In this document: piece after piece, positions 16,219 to 32,039 of the stretch
Layout of the letters: the number at the start of each line of letters is the position of its first letter
Position numbering within the stretch: the stretch's first letter is position 1
From: Muribaculaceae bacterium
Lineage (GTDB): Bacteria > Bacteroidota > Bacteroidia > Bacteroidales > Muribaculaceae
Direction of reading: 5' to 3'
Assembly (NCBI GenBank): GCA_022509065.1
Contig: JAFLTY010000026.1
Span: 1-32,039 of the forward strand
DNA length: 32,039 bases
The notes under the pieces: generated by a model
What the model saw: the letters and a program-made list of their open reading frames with translations, nothing else
Databases searched by the model: none
What the model was told of the DNA's origin: nothing
Translations under genes and position numbers: made by a program

Positions 16219-16836
16219 ATGACGAAATACCTCCTTGCTTTTGGCTTGATAGTATTAACGACTCTATCATGTGCAGCTAAAGACAAAATTTCTGCAACCG
16301 GAATATTGGATAATTCCGTGAAAGCATTTGACTCTGCCAAATCGATTAACATGACTATGTCGATTCGTAGCGGCTCGGATGCTTTTGAGGCACGTTTGCT
16401 TATGTCAAAAGAAAAATTTCGTTACGTTGCCGGGGCTTTAACCGTTTTTTATGACGGCAAAACACAGTGGACTGTAGATAATGAGACTAAAGAGGTATCG
16501 ATAACACAACCAACTGCTGATGAGATCGCGGAAACTAACCCATTGGCTTTTGTCAAATCATACAAAACGAAATACAAGGTCAATCTCGTATCAGAGTCAG
16601 GCGGCACATATTCTGTTAGACTGGAGGCTATCAACAAAACAAGTTATGTTAGGTCGGCTCTTGTCATAATTAGCGCCACAACCTGGTTACCGACCCATAT
16701 CACTGCAACACTTGCCAACGGACAGAACCTTACAATCAGTGTCACAAATACATTAACTAACGGAAGTTTACCTGAGTCGCCATTCAAATATAATTCTACA
16801 TCTTATCCTGGATACGAAGTGTTTGACTTGCGTTAA
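16219..16836 (+). CDS. LolA-like periplasmic carrier protein
   Basis: A 205-residue exported protein. After a signal sequence (about 1-20) it has the LolA fold pattern: SVKAFDSAKSINMTMSIRSG, LLMSKEKFRYVAGALTVFYDGKTQWTVDNETKEVSITQPTADEIAETNPLAF, then a beta-rich second half. LolA carries lipoproteins from the inner to the outer membrane. The sequence LTTLSCAA resembles a weak lipobox (Thr at -3), so cleavage by signal peptidase I after SCAA is more likely. It sits 23 bp after ftsK and about 29 bp before trxB. The ftsK-lolA adjacency supports the call, although sequence identity to proteobacterial LolA is low. Confidence 0.82.
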   Translation: MTKYLLAFGLIVLTTLSCAAKDKISATGILDNSVKAFDSAKSINMTMSIRSGSDAFEARLLMSKEKFRYVAGALTVFYDGKTQWTVDNETKEVSITQPTADEIAETNPLAFVKSYKTKYKVNLVSESGGTYSVRLEAINKTSYVRSALVIISATTWLPTHITATLANGQNLTISVTNTLTNGSLPESPFKYNSTSYPGYEVFDLR

Positions 16837-21513: not shown

Positions 21514-23229
21514 TTATTCATAGTCAATGTTCCTTTTTTTGAAAACTTCTATATCTTGTTGATGAATACCACTTTTTGTTAACGGTACACTTTCATTGTA
21601 GTCATTCAGATATTTTCGCGGACGAGGAGTAAATTTAGGCGATGCCACCGAATATGTTGCATCGTAATAAGGGGAACGCACTCCTGTAATGTCAAGGATA
21701 GTATGAAAGAGACTGCTTGTCGAAGCAATATTTTTATCCTTGTTGTTTCTGAGAGCATTGACTATATCGGGATGAATATCTTCAAATTCCTTTGACAACC
21801 ATATCACCATGGGTACATGAATCTGATGAGCAGTCGGCGTAGGGGATGAATGCAAGAAACGTTCACGTTCATCGTCAAAAATATCTTCTCCATGATCGGA
21901 AACAAAAATCATAGTCGCGGGAATATCCAAGTTATCCAAACTCTCGATAACCCCATCAAGCAGCGCATCGGTATAACGTATGGTGTTATCATAGGCGTTT
22001 AACAGTTGCTCTCGGTTAAATCTCGTTGCTCCCGAATTAATGTCAGGAGTAAAATAAGCCATATCGGAAGGATATCGTTTACGATACTCGAAATGTGAAC
22101 CGTAAGTATGCAACACAATAAACACTTTGTGGGAGGGAGATTTGTCAATTATTTCGTTCATCGCTCCTATTAGATTGATATCACGCATTGTTCCTCCTCG
22201 GTCAGAAATAAATTCTGCAAGCTGTGCCTCCTCTCCGTAGTTATCTAAATAGGAATGATTGCGTTTCTGGTTTGAAAGGAAAGCGGTGCGGTAACCAACA
22301 TTATTAAAAGCTGAGAAGATCGACTTGGTATATGCCACTGAGTCACCGAAGTTCTCGGGAAGTAAATAAGACAACAGCATAGGGACTGCTTTGTGTGTGG
22401 TGTTTATCTCAGTCAGCACTTTTGGGAAAGCGTAAACGCCTTCCCGTTGTTTCAACCGAGGATTGGTAGGACGGTCATAACCGAACAGTTCCCAATTTTC
22501 AGCGCGCGAAGTCTCGCCTATCACTATGACAAACACTTCCGGCATATCTTTATCACGAGTCATCACCGGAGAATAATTAAATTCGCGAGAAGTCGTATGA
22601 TAATGCATGGACATATTAGTCCGACGTATGGCAGTGACAAGGTTTTCTGCTACATTATAAGGAAAAAGTTCTCGACGTGGCATAAACCCTTCGGTAAACA
22701 AAACGGTAATGAAGAAAAGAATTGTCCCTATAATCAACAGGACATACGATGCCACTCGCATGTGACGCCGCCTTTTTACCCCGACATACCTTTTATTAAT
22801 GTACATTATGATAGCAGCCACTAACAAGGGCAGGTAAAGTATCACAATGACAGATATTGCTCCGAGAAGGTTTCCGAGCAACTCTTTCGCTTCCGACGCA
22901 CTGGTCGTAAGTAAGTTGACATACATGTCTATGGCTATGATACTCTCGCCATACAATACAAGTAATACTATTTGAAAACCAGACAGTATAATAATCGGTA
23001 GGAAAAACAATATAGTACGCCCAATCTTTTTAGACAAAGAAAACAACAACATATATAAACCCAAAGGGAGTATAATATTGGTGATTTTAGCCAAAACGGA
23101 ATTATATTCGGTTATCGCCAGCCATATATTAGGCGCTATCAAAAGTAACGGTGCGGCCCACAACCAAAATACGGGGTGTGCGAACCAATTCAATACACCA
23201 GAAATTGTTCTTTTTGTTTTGTGCATCAT
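21514..23229 (-). CDS. Phosphoethanolamine transferase, EptA/sulfatase superfamily
   Basis: An inner-membrane enzyme with a periplasmic sulfatase-fold domain that transfers phosphoethanolamine, most often to lipid A. The 571 residues show five N-terminal membrane segments (about 20-40, 50-66, 71-93, 121-145 and 160-180). The catalytic domain has VIVIGETSRAENWELFGYDRPTNP (metal ligand Glu239), the probable nucleophile threonine at 277 or 278 in INTTHKAVP, and VSDHGED for the second metal-ligand group. The catalytic set appears complete, unlike the PafA-like protein in the same run. It is the last gene of the envelope run, 13 bp after the Omp85-like gene. The exact acceptor cannot be read from the sequence. 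Confidence 0.9.
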   Translation of the reverse strand: MMHKTKRTISGVLNWFAHPVFWLWAAPLLLIAPNIWLAITEYNSVLAKITNIILPLGLYMLLFSLSKKIGRTILFFLPIIILSGFQIVLLVLYGESIIAIDMYVNLLTTSASEAKELLGNLLGAISVIVILYLPLLVAAIIMYINKRYVGVKRRRHMRVASYVLLIIGTILFFITVLFTEGFMPRRELFPYNVAENLVTAIRRTNMSMHYHTTSREFNYSPVMTRDKDMPEVFVIVIGETSRAENWELFGYDRPTNPRLKQREGVYAFPKVLTEINTTHKAVPMLLSYLLPENFGDSVAYTKSIFSAFNNVGYRTAFLSNQKRNHSYLDNYGEEAQLAEFISDRGGTMRDINLIGAMNEIIDKSPSHKVFIVLHTYGSHFEYRKRYPSDMAYFTPDINSGATRFNREQLLNAYDNTIRYTDALLDGVIESLDNLDIPATMIFVSDHGEDIFDDERERFLHSSPTPTAHQIHVPMVIWLSKEFEDIHPDIVNALRNNKDKNIASTSSLFHTILDITGVRSPYYDATYSVASPKFTPRPRKYLNDYNESVPLTKSGIHQQDIEVFKKRNIDYE

Positions 23230-23242
23230 AGTAAATTAAGTG

Positions 23243-24394
23243 TTAAAAGGCCTCGTTAATCGAGAAGTTAAAACCGTATTCATCTTTACCAATACCGAAA
23301 TCCAAACGCACATTGACACGTTGTTTAAACTCCCAACGATACCCTACTCCGGCGTTTGGCAAAACATGGTGAATATCAAAGTCCGAAAACTTGGGGAAGA
23401 TGGTTCCCGCTCCTATCCATACCACTATGCCGTTACGACGCCAAATATGTTGTCTGAGTTCGACGGTAATATCCATTTCGCATTTATCACGGAAACGACC
23501 TTCGTAATAGCCTCGCATCCTTTCTGATCCGCCGAATGTAGGCAACATGCCCCAAGGAGTATTGCCATAAGTGATATCAGCATGATACATGGCTGCTAAA
23601 ACTCCGGACTTCCATACTTTTTTGTACACCGATGCAGTAAGCTCGGATTGCGAAAAAGCATATTTATTACCCATAAAACGAGGGTTAAATACCTGGTTAT
23701 AACGAAGGAAAATTCCACGATATGCATTAAAAGGCACATCACGGCTGTCATAATATGCAGTGATGCCTACACCCGTAGTCAATGTCTCGCGCGGTTCACC
23801 GGCAAATAATTCAGGTCGGTCAACACGCGTGGCTTTGTTGTAACTGAAAGAAGCTATTGGCCCAATGAAAAATCGTTTCCCGAACCGCATTACGAAGTCG
23901 GCTTTGACAACTCCTTGAATTCTTTTGAATATACTTTCGTTGTTGTCGTTTTTATCCATCTCATAGCCAATCCCCCAAAATTTATCTTTAAAGGTATATA
24001 CATACGCGCTATAATTAATTCTAAAGCGGTCTTTGGGAAATATATGATAACCTTCTCCTTCAATTTTATACAATTGCCCCAGCGTCACTTTCCCTTTTAA
24101 CGACAGTTGGGACGGAGGCGTGTCAATCATAGGGACACCCATAGCATCTCTATGGGTATAATAACGTGCCGAACTGACGAGTCCCAACCCGAGTCCCGCC
24201 TCCGAAGAATAAAACGGCGCTCCGATAAAACTGATATCAAATTTCTTGTCTGGATGAGGCTTGTTTGCTTCGCCGAAATAATTGATGACTCGCCGGACAA
24301 AATTAGGGTTTTCTTCTTGTGCATACACACAAAACATCTTCCCCGAGATGGCAACCATCAATATAAGTATAGCGATCTTTATGCGTTTTATCAT
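23243..24394 (-). CDS. Omp85-type outer-membrane barrel lacking POTRA domains
   Basis: A 383-residue protein with a signal peptide (cleavage near Ala25 in VYAQ) and almost at once a beta-barrel made of alternating strands, ending in phenylalanine as outer-membrane barrels do. The segment GGSERMRGYYEGRFRDK matches the Omp85 loop-6 motif ((V/I)RG(F/Y)), here with Met. BamA has five POTRA domains before the barrel; this protein has no space for even one (about 30 residues). It therefore belongs with the short surface-antigen (D15) proteins. It lies 24 bp after the LolC/E-like permease and 13 bp before the EptA-type gene. Function is unknown; it may assemble or translocate an envelope component. 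Confidence 0.85.
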   Translation of the reverse strand: MIKRIKIAILILMVAISGKMFCVYAQEENPNFVRRVINYFGEANKPHPDKKFDISFIGAPFYSSEAGLGLGLVSSARYYTHRDAMGVPMIDTPPSQLSLKGKVTLGQLYKIEGEGYHIFPKDRFRINYSAYVYTFKDKFWGIGYEMDKNDNNESIFKRIQGVVKADFVMRFGKRFFIGPIASFSYNKATRVDRPELFAGEPRETLTTGVGITAYYDSRDVPFNAYRGIFLRYNQVFNPRFMGNKYAFSQSELTASVYKKVWKSGVLAAMYHADITYGNTPWGMLPTFGGSERMRGYYEGRFRDKCEMDITVELRQHIWRRNGIVVWIGAGTIFPKFSDFDIHHVLPNAGVGYRWEFKQRVNVRLDFGIGKDEYGFNFSINEAF

Positions 24395-24418: not shown

Positions 24419-25672
24419 TCAATCAAAACGCAACGTTGCTGCCGGAGACATTCGCGTGGCGATACGACCCGGCAACAGAAGTATTAACCATGAAAACGCA
24501 AGTATGCCTACATTAAGCAATACAATACTTGGAACAGAAATATTTATTGGCACAGTGTCAATATAATACATACTGGGATCAAGGCTGATAGCGCCTGTAT
24601 ATTTCTGAAGCAACAAAGCACTCAGTCCGATTATATTGCCAATCAAAACACCCCAAAGCGTCAGTTTCAGTGAAAGATAAATAAAAATATCGCTGATAAA
24701 TTTGTTAGGGGCACCAATAGCACGTAACAACCCGATGGCATTGACCTTATCGAGAACCTGTATAAAGAGTGACGAAATCAGAGTGGAAGCCGCAATAAGA
24801 ATCATTAAGATAAAAATTACCACAACATTAGTGTTCAAAAGCTCCAACCAGTTCAGAAAAACGGCTCCTTGTCTGACAATAGTGTCAACTTGGTACGCTG
24901 TGGCCGGATTACGTGTCACATTGTAATTATAGATAAATTTATTTTCAAGTTGATTGGCCTTCTCTTCAACTTCTTTCAAATCTATGTTACGTATTTCCAC
25001 TCCGGTTGCTTCTCCATCTTTTATGCCGGCAATCTTACGTAAATCAGCACTTCGGCTAAAAGCTATTATATCATCATAATCCGAAAACCCCGTGTCGTAA
25101 ATACCTACAACAGTAAAGGGACGCGCACGAAGTCTGCCGTTCGACACAAAGCAGATGTTTATTTTATCGTCTGCATCAATTCCCAACTTGTCAGCAAGCG
25201 TTTGCGATATCGCAATTTCTCGTGGTCTCTCTCCGTCAGGCCATTTTCCTTGCCGTATTTTCTTTTTTTCGAACTCGGCTTTATAATCATCTTCAAAACC
25301 TTTGATTGAAATAGCCGCAAAATCATTTTCTGTTTTTATAATGCCGTTCAACATGACCACGGGGGTGACTGTGGCGTCTTTATCTACTTGCGCTATATCT
25401 TGATATAATTCCCCGTTGAGTTCGATTGTAGATACTTCGGTATTTGTGCTGACCGCTGATGGCAAGACAGTGATATCCGCGACAAAACCTTTTAGATTCG
25501 CCGTAATCTCATTCTTGAATCCTACCGATATAGCCAGTGTCAACTCGAGAACGGCTACAGCAAAAGCCACGCCTAACACCGCAATTACATTGCCGGTGCG
25601 AGGCGTAGCCTTTTTATTGAACCCGAGATTTCGGGCAACCCAGATTGCTGTTTCGGTCATGTCGAAGGACAA
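24419..25672 (-). CDS. LolC/LolE-family ABC transporter permease
   Basis: A 417-residue inner-membrane protein with the LolCE/MacB layout: a first membrane segment near 25-50 (TGNVIAVLGVAFAVAVLELTLAISVGF), a large periplasmic domain to about 275, and three C-terminal membrane segments in the FtsX-like domain (about 280-305, 325-355 and 370-400). In LolCDE this type of permease releases lipoproteins to LolA. No ATPase (LolD) gene is adjacent, so its ATPase must be encoded elsewhere. It starts 8 bp after the secA stop and precedes the Omp85-type gene. Assignment as LolC or LolE is not possible here. Confidence 0.88.
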   Translation of the reverse strand: MSFDMTETAIWVARNLGFNKKATPRTGNVIAVLGVAFAVAVLELTLAISVGFKNEITANLKGFVADITVLPSAVSTNTEVSTIELNGELYQDIAQVDKDATVTPVVMLNGIIKTENDFAAISIKGFEDDYKAEFEKKKIRQGKWPDGERPREIAISQTLADKLGIDADDKINICFVSNGRLRARPFTVVGIYDTGFSDYDDIIAFSRSADLRKIAGIKDGEATGVEIRNIDLKEVEEKANQLENKFIYNYNVTRNPATAYQVDTIVRQGAVFLNWLELLNTNVVVIFILMILIAASTLISSLFIQVLDKVNAIGLLRAIGAPNKFISDIFIYLSLKLTLWGVLIGNIIGLSALLLQKYTGAISLDPSMYYIDTVPINISVPSIVLLNVGILAFSWLILLLPGRIATRMSPAATLRFD

Positions 25673-25680
25673 GGCAACCG

Positions 25681-28600
25681 TTATTTACCGGCGCCGTGAC
25701 AATTCTTATACTTCTTGCCTGAACCGCAAGGGCACGGATCGTTTCGACCGATACGCGGGGCGTTAACCTTGAACGGTTGTGCCGGAGCCTGTGGACCACG
25801 TGGCGCTGCAGCGGCCTGTGCCTGGGCTCTTGCTTGCTCTTCGCTGGGAAGCGTGGCTTTAGATGTCTTGTAATCCGAGTCGGGTCGACGACGTGGCATG
25901 GGTCGATCCAAACTGGGAGAAGATGTTGTCTGTGTCTGAGTGCTTGTTTGTCCGTCAGGTGCCACACGTGGACTTTGTGGCGCCACAAACACTTTTGCGC
26001 GCATGAGTGACTGGACGGTGCGTTCGTTAAGGGTAGCTAACATACGCTGGAACATATGGAATGACTCCTGCTTATATATTACCAGGGGATCTTTTTGCTC
26101 GTATGAGGCGTTGCGTACAGATTGACGCAGGTCGTCGTTTTCACGAAGATGTTCTTTCCATAGTTCGTCGATAGTGAGCAGGATGAGTCGTTTCTGCCAT
26201 TCCTTTATTAGTGAACGGCCTTCGGTGTTGACGGCTTCCTCTATGTCGAAGACAATACGGAACACTCTTTTGCCGTCAGTTATCGGTAAGGCTCGCAGGC
26301 CGGTCTGTCCCTCGCTAACCATCATTTGAACCATCGGCATCATGGTCTGAAGTATCTGACTGTTGCTTCGTTCCATGCGCTGCATGGCTAATTGATGTAA
26401 TGTGTCTACTTTATCATCATGGGAAAGAGACTCAAATTCCTTGCGAGACATCTCTGGTTCGACGGCGAACAGGCGCATCATCTCAAGCTTAAGGTCATCA
26501 AACAAAGCTCCGTCCGGATAGTTTTTCACAAGGTTGTCTACCGCGTCATAGATGGTATTGGATATATCAATACCTATGCGCTCGCCTTTCAAGGCATGGT
26601 TACGTCGGTGGTAGATGAAAGTACGCTGCTTGTTCATGACATCGTCATAGTCAAGCAAATGTTTTCGTATGCCGAAGTTGTTTTCTTCCACGCGTTTCTG
26701 CGCTTTGGCAATAGAATTCGAAATCATTCTGTGTTCAAGCACCTCTCCCTCTTTGAATCCAAGTCTGTCAAGGAGCTTGACGACAGTATCGCTGGCATAG
26801 ACGCGCATCAACGGGTCTTCGAAAGACACATAGAATACTGAGCTACCGGGGTCTCCCTGTCGGCCTGAACGTCCGCGCAACTGATTGTCCACGCGGCGAG
26901 ACTCATGCCTTTCGGTACCTATGATGGCAAGACCACCTGCGGCTTTAACCTCGGGGGTGATCTTAATGTCGGTACCACGACCTGCCATGTTGGTGGCAAT
27001 CGTCACTGTGCCGGGACGTCCTGCTTGAGCGACAATTTCCGCTTCTTTTTGATGCAACTTGGCGTTGAGCACCTGATGGGGAATACGACGCATATCAAGC
27101 ATGCGGCTGATGAGCTGTGATATTTCGACCGATGTTGTACCCACAAGAACGGGTCGCCCGGCTTTCACCATATTCTCGATTTCATCTATTACGGCAGCAT
27201 ATTTCTCGCGTTTAGTGCGGTATACCAAGTCGTTACGGTCAATTCGCTGTATGGGTCGGTTGGTGGGAATACGTACCACATCAAGTTTGTATATATCCCA
27301 GAACTCGCCCGCTTCAGTATCAGCTGTACCTGTCATACCGGCCAGCTTGTAATACATGCGGAAATAATTCTGCAATGTTATGGTGGCGAAGGTCTGGGTG
27401 GCAGCTTCCACTTTCACGCCTTCCTTGGCTTCGATAGCCTGGTGCAGACCGTCGCTGTAGCGTCGTCCTTCCATGATACGACCTGTCTGTTCGTCGACAA
27501 TCTTGATTTTGTTGTCATCAATGACATATTCGACGTCTTTTTCAAACAAGGTATAGGCCTTAAGCAACTGTGTCACTGTATGCACACGTTCTGCTTTTAT
27601 TGCATAATCCTGCAGGATAGCGTCTTTCTTAGCTGCGCGTTCCTCAATGTCTTCGATGTGGTCGAGTTGTGAAAGGAGTTCAGCTATGTTGGGCAGCACA
27701 AAGAACTGTGAGTCGGAAATACGGCCAGTCAGGGCGTCAAGTCCTTTGTCGGTAAGCTCGACGGAACGATTCTTCTCGTCGATGACAAAATAAAGTGGAT
27801 CGGTCACCTCTGGCATTTCACGGGCGTTGTCCTGTAGGTAATGAGCTTCGGTTTTGAGCAACAGGGTCTTGTTACCTTCCTGGCTAAGGAATTTTATCAA
27901 GGCTCCGTTTTTAGGCAGACCTTTGTAGGCTCTGAATAGTAACAAAGCGCCTTCCTTCTTATCTTCGGGGTTTTCGCTTGCAAGTTTTGTTTTGGCATCG
28001 GATAATATCTGTGTCACCAGCCTTTTCTGAGCCTGAACCACGTTTTCAACGTTGCCTTTGAACTCATTGAAAAATTGGTCGTCGCCTTTCGGTACGGGAC
28101 CCGATATAATCAGTGGGGTACGGGCATCGTCGATAAGCACCGAGTCGACCTCGTCCACAATAGCGTAATAGTGTTTGCGCTGAACCATGTCCTCCGGATC
28201 CATGGCCATGTTGTCACGAAGATAGTCGAAACCGAATTCGTTGTTTGTGCCGTATGTTATGTCACAATTATATGCGGCACGGCGTTCAGGCGTGTTGGGT
28301 TGGTGCTTGTCAATACAGTCGACGGTCGCTCCATGGAACATGTAAAGCGGTCCCATCCATTCACAGTCACGTTTTGCCAGATAGTCATTGACTGTCACGA
28401 CATGGACGCCTTTCTTGGCCATTGAACGCAGGAAAACAGGAAGTGTAGCAACCAGGGTCTTACCCTCACCGGTAGCCATTTCAGCTATCTTGCCTTGGAA
28501 AAGGACTATGCCGCCTTTAAGCTGTACTTCATAATGGGTCATATCCCATTTTATCGTATTGCCGCCGGCCATCCAGCTGTTTTTCCAAATAGATTTGTCA

Positions 28601-29049
28601 CCGTCTATGGTGATAAAGTCTTTCCCTTGGGCTGCCAGCTCACGGTCAAGGTCAGTGGCCTGTACTGTGATAGTCTCGTTGGCTGCAAAGCGGGCTGCGG
28701 TTTCGCGCAATACGGCGAAAACTATTGGCAGATGTTTTTCGAGTTGCTCGTCAAGTATCTCGAGTATCTTCTTTTCATGACGGTCGATGGCGTCCCATTG
28801 CGACTGACGCTCGTCAATAGGAAGGTCTTCTATTTTGTCACGTATGTTGTCTATCGCCTGATAGTGTTCGGCCGTGGCACCGGCTATCTCGGCGCGTACC
28901 TCATCGATGCGCGAACGCAATTGGTCGTTGTTGAGTTTCTCAACTTCCGGCGTCAGAGCGAGTATTTTATCAACTATGGGTTGAAGCGCTTTTTGGTCGC
29001 GGGTGAACTTGTCGCCAAAAATTTTGCTTATTGAGTCAAAAAAAGACAT
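25681..29049 (-). CDS. secA: Preprotein translocase motor subunit SecA
   Basis: An ATPase that drives unfolded proteins through SecYEG. At 1122 residues it is about 220 longer than the E. coli protein. The Walker A lysine is Lys197 (MATGEGKT at 191-198), against Lys108 in E. coli, so about 90 residues are inserted in the N-terminal part. A further insert lies near 335-415 within the nucleotide and preprotein-binding region. [19 protein letters not shown] and the later helicase motifs ([28 protein letters not shown]) are intact. The C-terminus has a Pro/Gln/Ala-rich linker and the zinc site Cys1106, Cys1108, Cys1117 and His1118 that binds SecB or ribosomes. It sits 53 bp after the PafA-like gene. 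Such long SecA forms are usual in Bacteroidota. Confidence 0.97.
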
Positions 29050-29102: not shown

Positions 29103-30725
29103 TCATTTCAGTGACACGGAAGGTGTATCGGCACCGTTGGGCGACCGTATGTGCAACATGCCGGCCAATGTCGGAGCGATGGCTCGGGCGTCGACGGGTG
29201 TATCGATACGTTTCGGCTCTATATCCGGCGCCGTTATCATGAACATTGCCGTGGTCGGTGCCACCGAATAGGCGTTCTGCGGGATATGGTCTATAAAGTT
29301 ATAATCATCGACAAGAGTCCATCCCGGTATCAGATTGATAAATACGTCGCCCGACTGCGATATTATCGTGTTGCGTGCCTGTCCGGATGCATTGGGCACT
29401 ATGATATCGCCCCGTACTATGTCATCAATGGTGTATGCATGCCCTATGCCGGCCATGCGAACCAAGAAATCGGCCGTCTGTCTGCGCAAGGTCGACACCT
29501 CTATGTTGCGCTCGTTGGCAAGTATCGCATTGAGGTAAAAATTGCCGTTATTGAAGGCTGTCACCCATTCGCCGTTGCCATACAACGCGATGAGATAAAG
29601 ATTGAGTAACGAAACGGCTTTGCGAGAAGAAAATTCTCCTCCCGGAATATTATATCTGCCGTCATCCCGGCGCCTACTGTCTCGCGGCGGTGTGCCGGCA
29701 ATGTATATCAGCGTGTTGTCTCTGCCAATAGTGTTGTCTATTGTCGTAAACAGCTGCGCCAGGTCGTTGTCAAGCTTTATATAACTGTCATACAGTTCGT
29801 AACGGTTATCCACGTTCTGCGACCATTCGTATGGCTGCAGGTTGTAGGTCAAATTCAGTATATCGAATCCCTCGTGTCGGCCCAGCTCAAGAGTGGCGAG
29901 GTAATCCAAGGCAAGACGTGTTATCTCGCTGTTGACAAAGGGCGAGTTGGCAAACTTGTCGTATTTGTCGGCTGAATTTCCTCCAAAAGTGTATTTAAAA
30001 GAGCTGTCGGTCAGCCGCGCAGGCAGTCCGGAAGCTGATACAGTCACTTCCGATGGTACCCATTGCATCGTGTCGATGCGTGCCGACAGCGGATAATTCT
30101 TGTTGGCGTTGTTGGCCGGTATCGGAAACTCGGGATAGAACGATGTCGACGCCCATGTGCCGGTGTATGTGTCCAGCCATACGGCGCTGTTACCGGCATG
30201 GCCGCCCCATATAAGGGCTTGTGTAGCGTCGGGAGCTATCGAGTGGACACTGGTGGTGCCTGCGCCGGCTATACGCGATTCGTCGCTGAGCGTGCTTACC
30301 CTGAGGGCGCGTGGCGAGAATGGTTCTTTAGTATTGATGCCGTTCTCTTCACGGTCGGCAAATATATACTCGCGTCGGTGAGTAATGGGGTCATAAAGCA
30401 TGCCGCCACCTATGCCGTTGACCTTGGGGGCGGCTCCTGTGGCAAGGATGGCCGATGCCGTGGCTGCGTTGACATTGGTGCCGAAGTCTATGTTGTCAAG
30501 GACAGCTCCGTGGTTGAAGAAACGATTGAACCCGTTCCTGTCCATGAAGGGACGTAACTTCTCGAGTGTCTCGCCCGTGAGCCCGTCGACAACTATGCCT
30601 ACAACCAGGCGAGGCTGTTGCGCGGTAAGACTGACAGCTGAAACTACCGACGCCAATACCAACGCCATGAGGCGTGGCGTCAGCGATACCGATGTATTAT
30701 GGTTATTTTGCTTGCTTCTTGACAA
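29103..30725 (-). CDS. PafA-fold phosphatase-like protein lacking catalytic residues
   Basis: A 540-residue exported protein; the signal peptide uses either Met1 or Met20 (MALVLASVVSAVSLTAQQ). It follows PafA-type alkaline phosphatases along its length: LVVGIVVDG, the SPRALRVSTLSDE region, the tract from about residue 310 to 340, IPGGEF...LLNLYLIALYGNGEWV, QSGDV...PGW and a C-terminal IAPTL...IRSPNG. Only the first metal aspartate (Asp47) is kept. The nucleophile position is Ala87, the expected TADHG is AGTPP (343-347), the KDR pair region is PDA (165-167), and the expected THVP is replaced by VAPTT (488-492). It therefore looks catalytically dead. It overlaps the upstream DUF4105 gene by 23 bp if Met1 is used, and precedes secA. 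GC content appears higher than in the left half of the window. Confidence 0.85.
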   Translation of the reverse strand: MSRSKQNNHNTSVSLTPRLMALVLASVVSAVSLTAQQPRLVVGIVVDGLTGETLEKLRPFMDRNGFNRFFNHGAVLDNIDFGTNVNAATASAILATGAAPKVNGIGGGMLYDPITHRREYIFADREENGINTKEPFSPRALRVSTLSDESRIAGAGTTSVHSIAPDATQALIWGGHAGNSAVWLDTYTGTWASTSFYPEFPIPANNANKNYPLSARIDTMQWVPSEVTVSASGLPARLTDSSFKYTFGGNSADKYDKFANSPFVNSEITRLALDYLATLELGRHEGFDILNLTYNLQPYEWSQNVDNRYELYDSYIKLDNDLAQLFTTIDNTIGRDNTLIYIAGTPPRDSRRRDDGRYNIPGGEFSSRKAVSLLNLYLIALYGNGEWVTAFNNGNFYLNAILANERNIEVSTLRRQTADFLVRMAGIGHAYTIDDIVRGDIIVPNASGQARNTIISQSGDVFINLIPGWTLVDDYNFIDHIPQNAYSVAPTTAMFMITAPDIEPKRIDTPVDARAIAPTLAGMLHIRSPNGADTPSVSLK

Positions 30726-31926
30726 GATTGTTGATATTCAGGTATATATATAGGGCGCTTAGTGTCATGTCGGCCATCACCAAAGGTATAAAAGCCGGAT
30801 TGGGACTTTGAATGCCCAATAGCCAGACACTTAAAAGGCTAATTAACAACACAAAGTTAAGAAAAAAATATGTTATGACTGCTATTTTAGCTTTTTTTAT
30901 CCATAAGCATATTGCCGGTATCACGCACAACGGATTAAGCCATAACAGATTATAATTGGGCGATGTCGCCTCGTGCACCGAAACGAAGACCAGAAATGTC
31001 ACCACAAGACCGGCAAGGGTGAAACACGTGAATAGCACAGTCACCAAACCACGAGGATAGCGTCCGTATCGCAAACACTTCACCAGCGCGTAAATGATGA
31101 CAAATAACGACAGTACCCATGACACCGTTATCGGCCTGAGATACCAGTGTGTTGGCGCCAGTACTCGGCCATCAGGGTCGGTGTCGTTTAGCACTACTGT
31201 CTCGATGGTCAAAGGAGTTCCGTCTGTCAAACGAGCCTCATCCAATTGCATGTCCAGAATGACCGGAGCGAAAGATTTCTCCCGTACCGTTATTTGTCGG
31301 TCTATGCCGGTGCCCAGAGCCAAGTCTATGCCGAACTGATACCAAGGATAATTGCGATGATAATACCGCATGTAATCGCGAAAGGTCTGCAGGTCGGGGA
31401 TATCGTCGGGCTGACTCAACAAAATGCTGTCCCCTGTAGCCAGTTCAACGGTGCGCAACGGTCTCGTAGCGCAATTGTCCAACACATAGTTGTAACGATA
31501 CACTCTGTTCTCGGGCAAAAGATTGTTGGCCACGATAGTCAGTAAACGTTGTTTCTGTTCCGATGTGAGATTGAGTTTATGAGCTACCATACGCCTGCCT
31601 GCATCGATATACTCCCTCTCGAAATAACCCCAAGGAATGGCACCGGCCATATAATCGGTCTCACCCTTCACAAAACGATACACGAAATTGGGGGCGTCGA
31701 AACTGAACATTCCGTAGTTGATGGCCAGATCGTTACCCGGCATGCGGATACGAAGCGCCGAATGTCCCTCAAGTTCGTATATGTCGCTGCCGGGATACAT
31801 GTTCACAAACCACACCGTGGTGTCGCCGTCTACACCATAACCCTCGTTGGCTCGGGCTGTTCGGAACGACACGCCTATCACTGTCACAGCCAGTAACAGC
31901 CTGATAACCGTTGTTTTTATTTTCAT
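30703..31926 (-). CDS. DUF4105 (Lnb N-terminal-like) membrane protein
   Basis: A 407-residue protein: signal sequence or membrane anchor, an exported DUF4105 domain (about 35-260), then four or five hydrophobic segments in the C-terminal part, for example VSWVLSLFVIIYALV, GLVTVLFTCFTLAGLVVTFLVFV and ITYFFLNFVLLISLLSVWLLG. Conserved-looking residues are His55 in LEGHSALRI and Cys152 in YNYVLDNCATRPLR. This His and Asp-Asn-Cys layout recalls permuted NlpC/P60-like cysteine enzymes, which is only inference. The start at 31926 is preferred: the alternative ATG at 31947 abuts the T-run of the tRNA terminator. It is first in the envelope run and overlaps the PafA-like gene. Confidence 0.82.
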   Translation of the reverse strand: MKIKTTVIRLLLAVTVIGVSFRTARANEGYGVDGDTTVWFVNMYPGSDIYELEGHSALRIRMPGNDLAINYGMFSFDAPNFVYRFVKGETDYMAGAIPWGYFEREYIDAGRRMVAHKLNLTSEQKQRLLTIVANNLLPENRVYRYNYVLDNCATRPLRTVELATGDSILLSQPDDIPDLQTFRDYMRYYHRNYPWYQFGIDLALGTGIDRQITVREKSFAPVILDMQLDEARLTDGTPLTIETVVLNDTDPDGRVLAPTHWYLRPITVSWVLSLFVIIYALVKCLRYGRYPRGLVTVLFTCFTLAGLVVTFLVFVSVHEATSPNYNLLWLNPLCVIPAICLWIKKAKIAVITYFFLNFVLLISLLSVWLLGIQSPNPAFIPLVMADMTLSALYIYLNINNLVKKQAK

Positions 31927-31947
31927 CGATACATTCATGGGCGGCAT

Positions 31948-31975
31948 AAAACAAAACCCGCCAGGTCAGCGGGTT
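31948..31975 (-). terminator. Rho-independent terminator after tRNA-Cys
   Basis: On the minus strand AACCCGC and GCGGGTT (plus 31969-31975 and 31955-31961) form a 7-bp GC-rich stem with a 7-base loop. It is followed by TTGTTTT. It sits 14 bp after the tRNA 3' end and directly before the envelope run, with the tail reaching the first possible ATG of the DUF4105 gene. Confidence 0.7.
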
Positions 31976-31989
31976 GTCTCTTTGTTTTG

Positions 31990-32039
31990 AGGTTCCTAGC
32001 AGAATCGAACTGCTGTAAACGGTTTTGCAGACCGGCGCC
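31990..32039 (-). tRNA. tRNA-Cys (GCA), 5' part beyond the window
   Basis: Read leftward, the sequence holds the anticodon loop CTGCAAA (anticodon GCA, with T33 and A37), the T-arm AGCAG-TTCGATT-CTGCT, and the acceptor 3' strand AGGAACC followed by a T discriminator, the base characteristic of cysteine tRNAs. The CCA end is not encoded. The window ends before the D-arm and the 5' acceptor strand. The outermost pair of the anticodon stem is C-T, which may be a mismatch. Confidence 0.85.

Follow-up and report, generated by a model that had tools for sequence, protein, structure and literature searches.

Bacterial pseudoenzymes are proteins that have lost catalysis and have been kept as partners. 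Among enzymes, the closest described relative of the protein studied here is the alkaline phosphatase PafA, with the solved structures 5tj3 and 5too, whose active site we take to consist of ten residues (D38, T79, N100, K162, R164, D305, H309, D352, H353 and H486), D38 being a metal ligand. This list agrees with the title of 5too, which names T79S, N100A, K162A and R164A, and with the residues DTNKRDHDHH at the ten columns in 29/29 homologues fetched from outside the order. After PafA, the solved proteins closest in sequence and fold are the PhoK/SPAP alkaline phosphatases of Sphingomonas (3q3q, 5xwi, 5xwk), which are active enzymes by their titles and more distant from our protein than PafA is (17% identity, Foldseek). 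The source organism of 5tj3 and 5too is Elizabethkingia meningoseptica (PMC8812569, in its available part). According to that same part, only PafA sequences with the key residues were kept there and those with point mutations at them were removed, so degenerate PafA homologues would have been met earlier and set aside. The second described system is Lnb, the Bacteroides/Bacteroidota enzyme for lipoprotein N-acylation (available parts of PMC13251419 and PMC13103446), described in 2024 (Armbruster 2024, as cited in both). No pseudoenzyme family of the PafA branch is described in the open-licence papers searched, nor is the protein analysed here, on which a search with B. thetaiotaomicron locus tags gave nothing either, and the available parts of PMC5682007 and PMC13114119 hold nothing on it.

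In this work, we have analysed a window of 32,039 nucleotides (the whole stretch of DNA considered here, from contig JAFLTY010000026.1 of a Muribaculaceae bacterium), in which a gene that we call pseudo-PafA lies between an Lnb-family gene and secA:

30703..31947, minus strand: Lnb-family lipoprotein N-acyltransferase (DUF4105), 414 aa, sharing 23 bp with the pseudo-PafA ORF when the latter is started at TTG
29103..30725, minus strand: pseudo-PafA gene, whose 540-aa product has the PafA fold and lacks most of the catalytic and metal-binding residues of PafA
30621..30725, minus strand: predicted N-terminal signal peptide of pseudo-PafA, residues 1-35, with the hydrophobic segment 13-31 and SLTA/QQ at the putative cleavage point
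25681..29049, minus strand: secA, 53 bp 3' of the pseudo-PafA stop codon

The pseudo-PafA ORF was confirmed at these coordinates and on this strand, with a TTG start and 540 aa, and the 53 bp between its stop codon and secA agree with an earlier note on this DNA, which had placed it directly upstream of secA. Of the two candidate start codons, TTG (residue 1) is preferred to ATG (residue 20), as the TPRLMAL stretch before and across the ATG can be aligned with its counterpart in a related locus (L004). The signal segment has no lipobox cysteine, and the whole protein is free of Cys; the cleavage type and the TTG start are favoured on a reading of the sequence by eye. The contig ends 92 bp 5' of the Lnb start (window 31948-32039), so the operon head and promoter lie outside view.

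Pseudo-PafA has, on model evidence, the alkaline phosphatase superfamily fold over its full length. A phmmer search matched it to 5tj3 (E 8.5e-29; query 36-533 on chain 16-525), the NCBIfam profile alk_phos_PafA (NF042991) gave 189.1 bits (E 1.1e-55), which is under the curated equivalog cut-off of 650, and Pfam Phosphodiest exceeded its cut-off of 23 with 36.8 bits. The AlphaFold2 model, built with 67 sequences, reached a pLDDT of 91.0 and a pTM of 0.89, and its best PDB match in Foldseek was again 5tj3 (TM 0.79/0.82, 22% identity), followed by 5too and then by the Sphingomonas phosphatases. The claim of the earlier note that the protein is a PafA homologue from end to end is thus upheld by the profile and phmmer matches, and the structure prediction that it had proposed as a check leads to PafA as well. 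In Pfam and NCBIfam profile searches, pseudo-PafA matched no acyltransferase family.

The full-length fold and the framework residues are common to PafA and pseudo-PafA, whereas 8 or 9 of the ten catalytic and metal residues are replaced in the latter. Two positions are of particular use in what follows:

30585..30587, minus strand: Asp47, corresponding to PafA D38; among 121 best-match orthologues the column holds D in 99 and E in 22
29688..29693, minus strand: Thr345-Pro346, replacing PafA Asp352-His353 in the alignments

By alignment, T79 corresponds to Ala87, N100 to Gly108, K162 to Asp166, R164 to Thr168, D305 to Pro298 and H309 to Ser302. PafA H486 pairs with His480 in the phmmer alignment and in a 60-row alignment, and with Gln483 in a larger one, which is why the count of lost sites is 8 or 9; His480 does not behave as a conserved ligand, since only 9/121 best-match orthologues have H in that column. 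The residues of an active PafA-type site thus appear to be absent, as the earlier note had claimed in stating that Asp47 was kept and nearly all the rest lost. Its equivalences, drawn by eye, were right for Asp47, Ala87, Thr345 and Pro346 and wrong for D305 and H309, which it had put at Tyr294 and Pro298, and for K162 and R164, which it had put at Pro165 and Ala167; the missing His that it reported near 489 is doubtful, as His480 aligns with H486 in two of three alignments.

The same loss was found in the orthologues. Of 198 genomes of the window's family, 190 gave a match; 15 of these (all of genus g17) are intact PafA and one (G190) is marginal, leaving 174. The sites were read in 139 loci, namely the 59 best rows of the family, window included, and the best 80 of at least 570 titled relatives, whose titles include Muribaculaceae, Barnesiella, Coprobacter, Phocaeicola, Bacteroides and Parabacteroides and indicate that the order is Bacteroidales. 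Dropping rows more than 99.5% identical left 121 distinct orthologues, all of them best matches listed. D305, D352 and H353 are kept in none of these 121, T79, K162, R164 and H309 in one each, N100 in 19 and H486 in nine; counted per orthologue, no site matches in 20, one in 74, two in 24 and three in three. This bears out the expectation of the earlier note that the same sites would be lost elsewhere, with 0-3 of ten kept in every best-match orthologue.

The family is under constraint. The match is uninterrupted in nearly all family rows listed, a few having one stop, and 25 columns are invariant among 31 diverse copies. Across 20 close pairs of relatives with dS <1.5 (Nei-Gojobori, greedy pairing), dN/dS was 0.027-0.266 with a median of 0.055, pairs with saturated dS (high dS or no value) being left out, and the median was unchanged with the 16 pairs that stayed when four repeats (same genomes in two collections) were dropped. 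These ratios belong to the relatives, as the closest match listed for the window's own protein is 47% identical and too distant for a ratio of its own; among the relatives, purifying selection, which the earlier note had proposed to look for by dN/dS, is what was found. Taken with the predicted fold and the site loss in 121/121 orthologues, this selection against amino-acid change identifies pseudo-PafA as a putative pseudoenzyme of the PafA branch, and the selected, non-enzymatic role that had been suggested for it is probably correct. As in other bacterial pseudoenzymes, the catalytic residues have been lost under purifying selection and there is a preferred gene partner.

This partner is Lnb. 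The upstream gene exceeds the Pfam cut-offs for Lnb_N (67.8 bits) and for 5TMH_Lnb (96.4 bits), and scores 267.1 bits with the NCBIfam Lnb profile, short of its curated equivalog cut-off of 550; the DUF4105 membrane protein named in the earlier note does adjoin pseudo-PafA, and is better called a probable member of the Lnb family on these Pfam domains. Of the 121 best-match orthologues, 119 have Lnb as the immediate upstream neighbour, 116 have SecA as the immediate downstream one, and 115 have both. One locus (L055) has neither neighbour and one (L056) SecA only, while in four (L061, L093, L104 and L105) Lnb is present and SecA is not seen, L093 and L105 ending too early to tell. In 162 separate adjacent loci, same-genome repeats included, a median of 6.5 bp separates the Lnb stop from the point where the pseudo-PafA profile match begins.

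Association was also seen at the level of genomes and of sequence divergence. In 198 genomes of the order, 78 hold both Lnb and a PafA-like match of more than 100 bits, 14 Lnb alone, 36 the match alone and 70 neither, which gives an odds ratio of 10.8 (Fisher p 1.8e-13, kinship ignored); where the profile match is at least 500 bits, Lnb is present in 31/31 order genomes. Pairwise distances in 101 loci correlated with r 0.85 for Lnb and pseudo-PafA, 0.76 for Lnb and SecA and 0.82 for pseudo-PafA and SecA, the median identities being 39% for Lnb, 40% for pseudo-PafA and 68% for SecA. The partial correlation of Lnb with pseudo-PafA given SecA was 0.61 in these 101 loci, as high a value being reached in 0/500 permutations, with kinship and saturation ignored. 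Faster evolution of Lnb and pseudo-PafA than of SecA may explain part of the distance correlation.

A further tie is that nine genomes of six genus codes, all in another family of the order (f41), encode the two proteins, which have different folds, as a single frame that runs for 899-956 codons without interruption:

Fusion genomes: G237, G606, G620, G664, G684, G603, G598, G688 and G614, L061 being one of the loci
Fusion genus codes: g70, g310, g294, g289, g299 and g304
Fusion loci: L312, L313 and L342-L349

Each of these frames gives a near-complete Lnb match and then a near-complete pseudo-PafA match, and in g294 two genomes have the fusion and two have separate genes. Family f41 was read in 50 loci from 49 genomes, including one that also stands among the 121 as L061. 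Ten of the 50 loci are fusions (two of them from G606), in 23 a separate Lnb gene lies upstream, and in 17 no Lnb is seen there, two of the 17 having less than 0.2 kb of upstream DNA in view; all 50 keep 0-2 of the ten PafA sites. SecA was seen in 0/50 of them, where at most a few kb of flanking DNA was in view. For each fusion, 4-7 hydrophobic segments were counted in a simple hydropathy scan, and in L345 and L348 the former signal peptide persists as a hydrophobic stretch between the Lnb and pseudo-PafA parts, which would place the pseudo-PafA part in the periplasm. The fused frames may contain an internal start or undergo signal-peptide cleavage. In three g299 genomes (L352, L353 and L354) the Lnb frame stops some 50 profile positions short of the full match, immediately ahead of the pseudo-PafA frame, possibly by a split or a frameshift.

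The conserved adjacency and the natural fusion mark pseudo-PafA as a candidate Lnb accessory protein, though not a universal one. The explanation that we consider best, and that we would give an even chance of being right, is that it is a secreted pseudoenzyme acting as a non-catalytic periplasmic partner of Lnb. This is the smallest account that would fit the fusion, the spacing, the likely topology and the loss of catalysis. Pseudo-PafA, keeping the whole fold and most of the residues that hold it while the two-metal site and the catalytic residues are gone, would be made beside Lnb, often from nearly abutting frames, and would bind Lnb at the inner membrane, on its periplasmic side. It might also bind the acyl-donor phospholipid or the N-terminus of the lipoprotein there, placing or holding the substrate; we propose such docking by analogy, because the ancestral fold binds phosphate esters and because of the reaction that Lnb carries out.

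SecA was considered as the main partner, and is weakened in that place by the Lnb fusions and by the loci that keep Lnb without SecA in view (L061, L104, L143 and those of f41). The earlier note had linked the gene to secretion or the envelope, which the Lnb linkage (119/121) and the nine fusions narrow to lipoprotein maturation: the neighbourhood points there more than to general secretion, because the linkage to Lnb is the tighter one and the Lnb fusions occur without SecA seen nearby.

In genus g17, of the window's own family, 15 genomes gave no pseudo-PafA match, the weak matches first obtained there being rejected as intact PafA, and Lnb is found strongly in 14/15, the remaining genome (G079) having a weaker match only. 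In 11/14 fetched main Lnb loci of this genus, the next gene after Lnb is secA, some 0.2-0.9 kb away, which leaves no room for pseudo-PafA; its absence between the two genes was seen in loci L226-L241. Lnb does not need pseudo-PafA in g17, since the gene is gone and Lnb is kept, and the co-loss of the two is rejected for this genus on the same ground. An intact PafA stands elsewhere in the genome in 15/15 and may substitute for it. Pseudo-PafA is thus not present wherever Lnb occurs, g17 and the 14/198 order genomes with Lnb alone being the cases found.

A rival explanation, possible and on the whole rather unlikely, is that pseudo-PafA is a general envelope or periplasmic scaffold, whose binding role was gained by the ancestral copy of the order while still a phosphatase and whose catalysis was lost later in many lineages, its place between Lnb and SecA in the gut families being one inherited gene order. 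The loss of the gene in g17 with Lnb kept would fit this, as would the 17/50 f41 loci that show no Lnb upstream, and a wider sample of 66 further order loci, a part of the order homologues matched, speaks for it as well. Three of these adjoin Lnb and are degenerate, and 63 were not seen beside Lnb, seven of them having less than 0.8 kb of upstream DNA in view. Among the 63, seven retain the full set of ten residues and the other 56 retain 0-5. Each of these 56 is from a genome of its own, 40 family codes being represented, and an Lnb match lies elsewhere in the genome in 30 and is absent in 26. Loss of catalysis is therefore not tied to Lnb, as these copies and the f41 loci without Lnb upstream are degenerate too. 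The neighbours of the unlinked copies differ and show no single shared partner, the best cluster reaching 17/66 loci; in loci L163-L214 unlinked degenerate copies recur beside genes that we take to be M14-type carboxypeptidase-like, phosphopantetheinyl transferase, GldD-like lipoprotein and PcrB-like genes.

Part of the protein could carry such an older role:

29577..29609, minus strand: helix LLNLYLIALYG, residues 373-383, conserved among linked and degenerate copies and also found in the four intact members of the clade

Compared with PafA, pseudo-PafA adds this conserved helix (LLNxYLxAxYG) and a C-terminal RIRxPN. The helix is weakly conserved in other PafAs, and we consider it a candidate binding surface. 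Three of the seven intact copies (L153, L154 and L155) group with 5tj3 as ordinary PafA, in genomes where a linked dead copy is present as well. The remaining four (L164, L172, L178 and L203) are nested inside the degenerate clade, in genomes without an Lnb match, and carry LL[KR][ST]YLNA[IVL]YG, which the eight ordinary PafAs compared do not; a helix LLxxYLxAxYG is thus common to linked, degenerate and intact members, as the scaffold explanation would have it. The tree was made by a quick method, with SH-aLRT of 80-99 around the four nested copies and several long branches elsewhere. On it the intact state was lost ten times if never regained, or changed three times if gain and loss cost the same, and catalysis was probably lost repeatedly, because the four intact copies sit among degenerate ones. 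Outside the order, the 29 best fetched loci of the phylum sample were all intact (100/198 genomes matched, some weakly).

Against a scaffold independent of Lnb stand the fusions in nine genomes, the presence of Lnb in all 31 order genomes with the strongest matches, and the correlation with Lnb beyond SecA (partial r 0.61). The Lnb linkage also persists where SecA is not seen (L061, L104 and L143), while the reverse occurs in L056 alone of the 121. The two explanations can be combined: tentatively, and with the chances rather against it, a Bacteroidales family may have gained a binding role marked by LLxxYLxAxYG while catalytic and then lost catalysis many times, the dead form of the gut families becoming an Lnb subunit, fused in some lineages, that docks the acyl donor or the lipoprotein.

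It is improbable that pseudo-PafA is a changed enzyme, whose cleft would catalyse another reaction through other residues or a single metal. The Asp47 column is D or E in 121/121 best-match orthologues, the Thr345 column is T in 112/121, and His176, Asp148, Asp288, Glu310 and Asp313 are invariant or nearly so, as might be expected of a working site. However, these last five are also the commonest residues in the intact PafA set (71-100%), outside the ten sites, and are therefore better read as framework; His176 is the only invariant His among 67 copies; and, Pro/Gly at 346 apart, none of the remaining lost sites has a residue shared by more than 63% of the 121. The related idea that ligands are supplied from elsewhere in the chain is rejected, as no extra conserved His/Asp set stands out and the near-invariant residues are shared with intact PafA. 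A neutral passenger or decaying pseudogene, kept by its operon with important genes, would suit the one genus where the gene is missing and Lnb and secA have closed up, but with the low dN/dS in relatives, the open frames and the 25 invariant columns among 31 copies decay is rejected and this reading retains a very slight chance.

If pseudo-PafA is indeed a non-catalytic partner of Lnb, a conserved pseudoenzyme would be an unrecognised part of lipoprotein finishing in gut Bacteroidales, and the Lnb pathway, so far described as a single enzyme, would gain a subunit. The intact, half-lost and dead copies in one clade offer a series on how a binding role may outlive catalysis, and gut surveys should leave homologues like pseudo-PafA out of their phosphatase counts.

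Other envelope genes were seen in the window. A LolCE-like lipoprotein-releasing permease comes directly after secA (window 24419-25672, minus strand; TIGR02212, 144.7 bits with a cut-off of 362). Such a gene was found after SecA in 0/50 long related loci with SecA (median 2.5 kb in view), and a conserved lipoprotein-export cluster 3' of secA is rejected on this count. A LolA1-type lipoprotein chaperone, above its NCBIfam cut-off, lies at 16219-16836 on the plus strand, which brings LolA together with a LolCE-like and an Lnb-family gene in one 32-kb window. An EptA-like phosphoethanolamine transferase stands beside a short Omp85-family barrel (21514-23229 and 23243-24394, minus strand).
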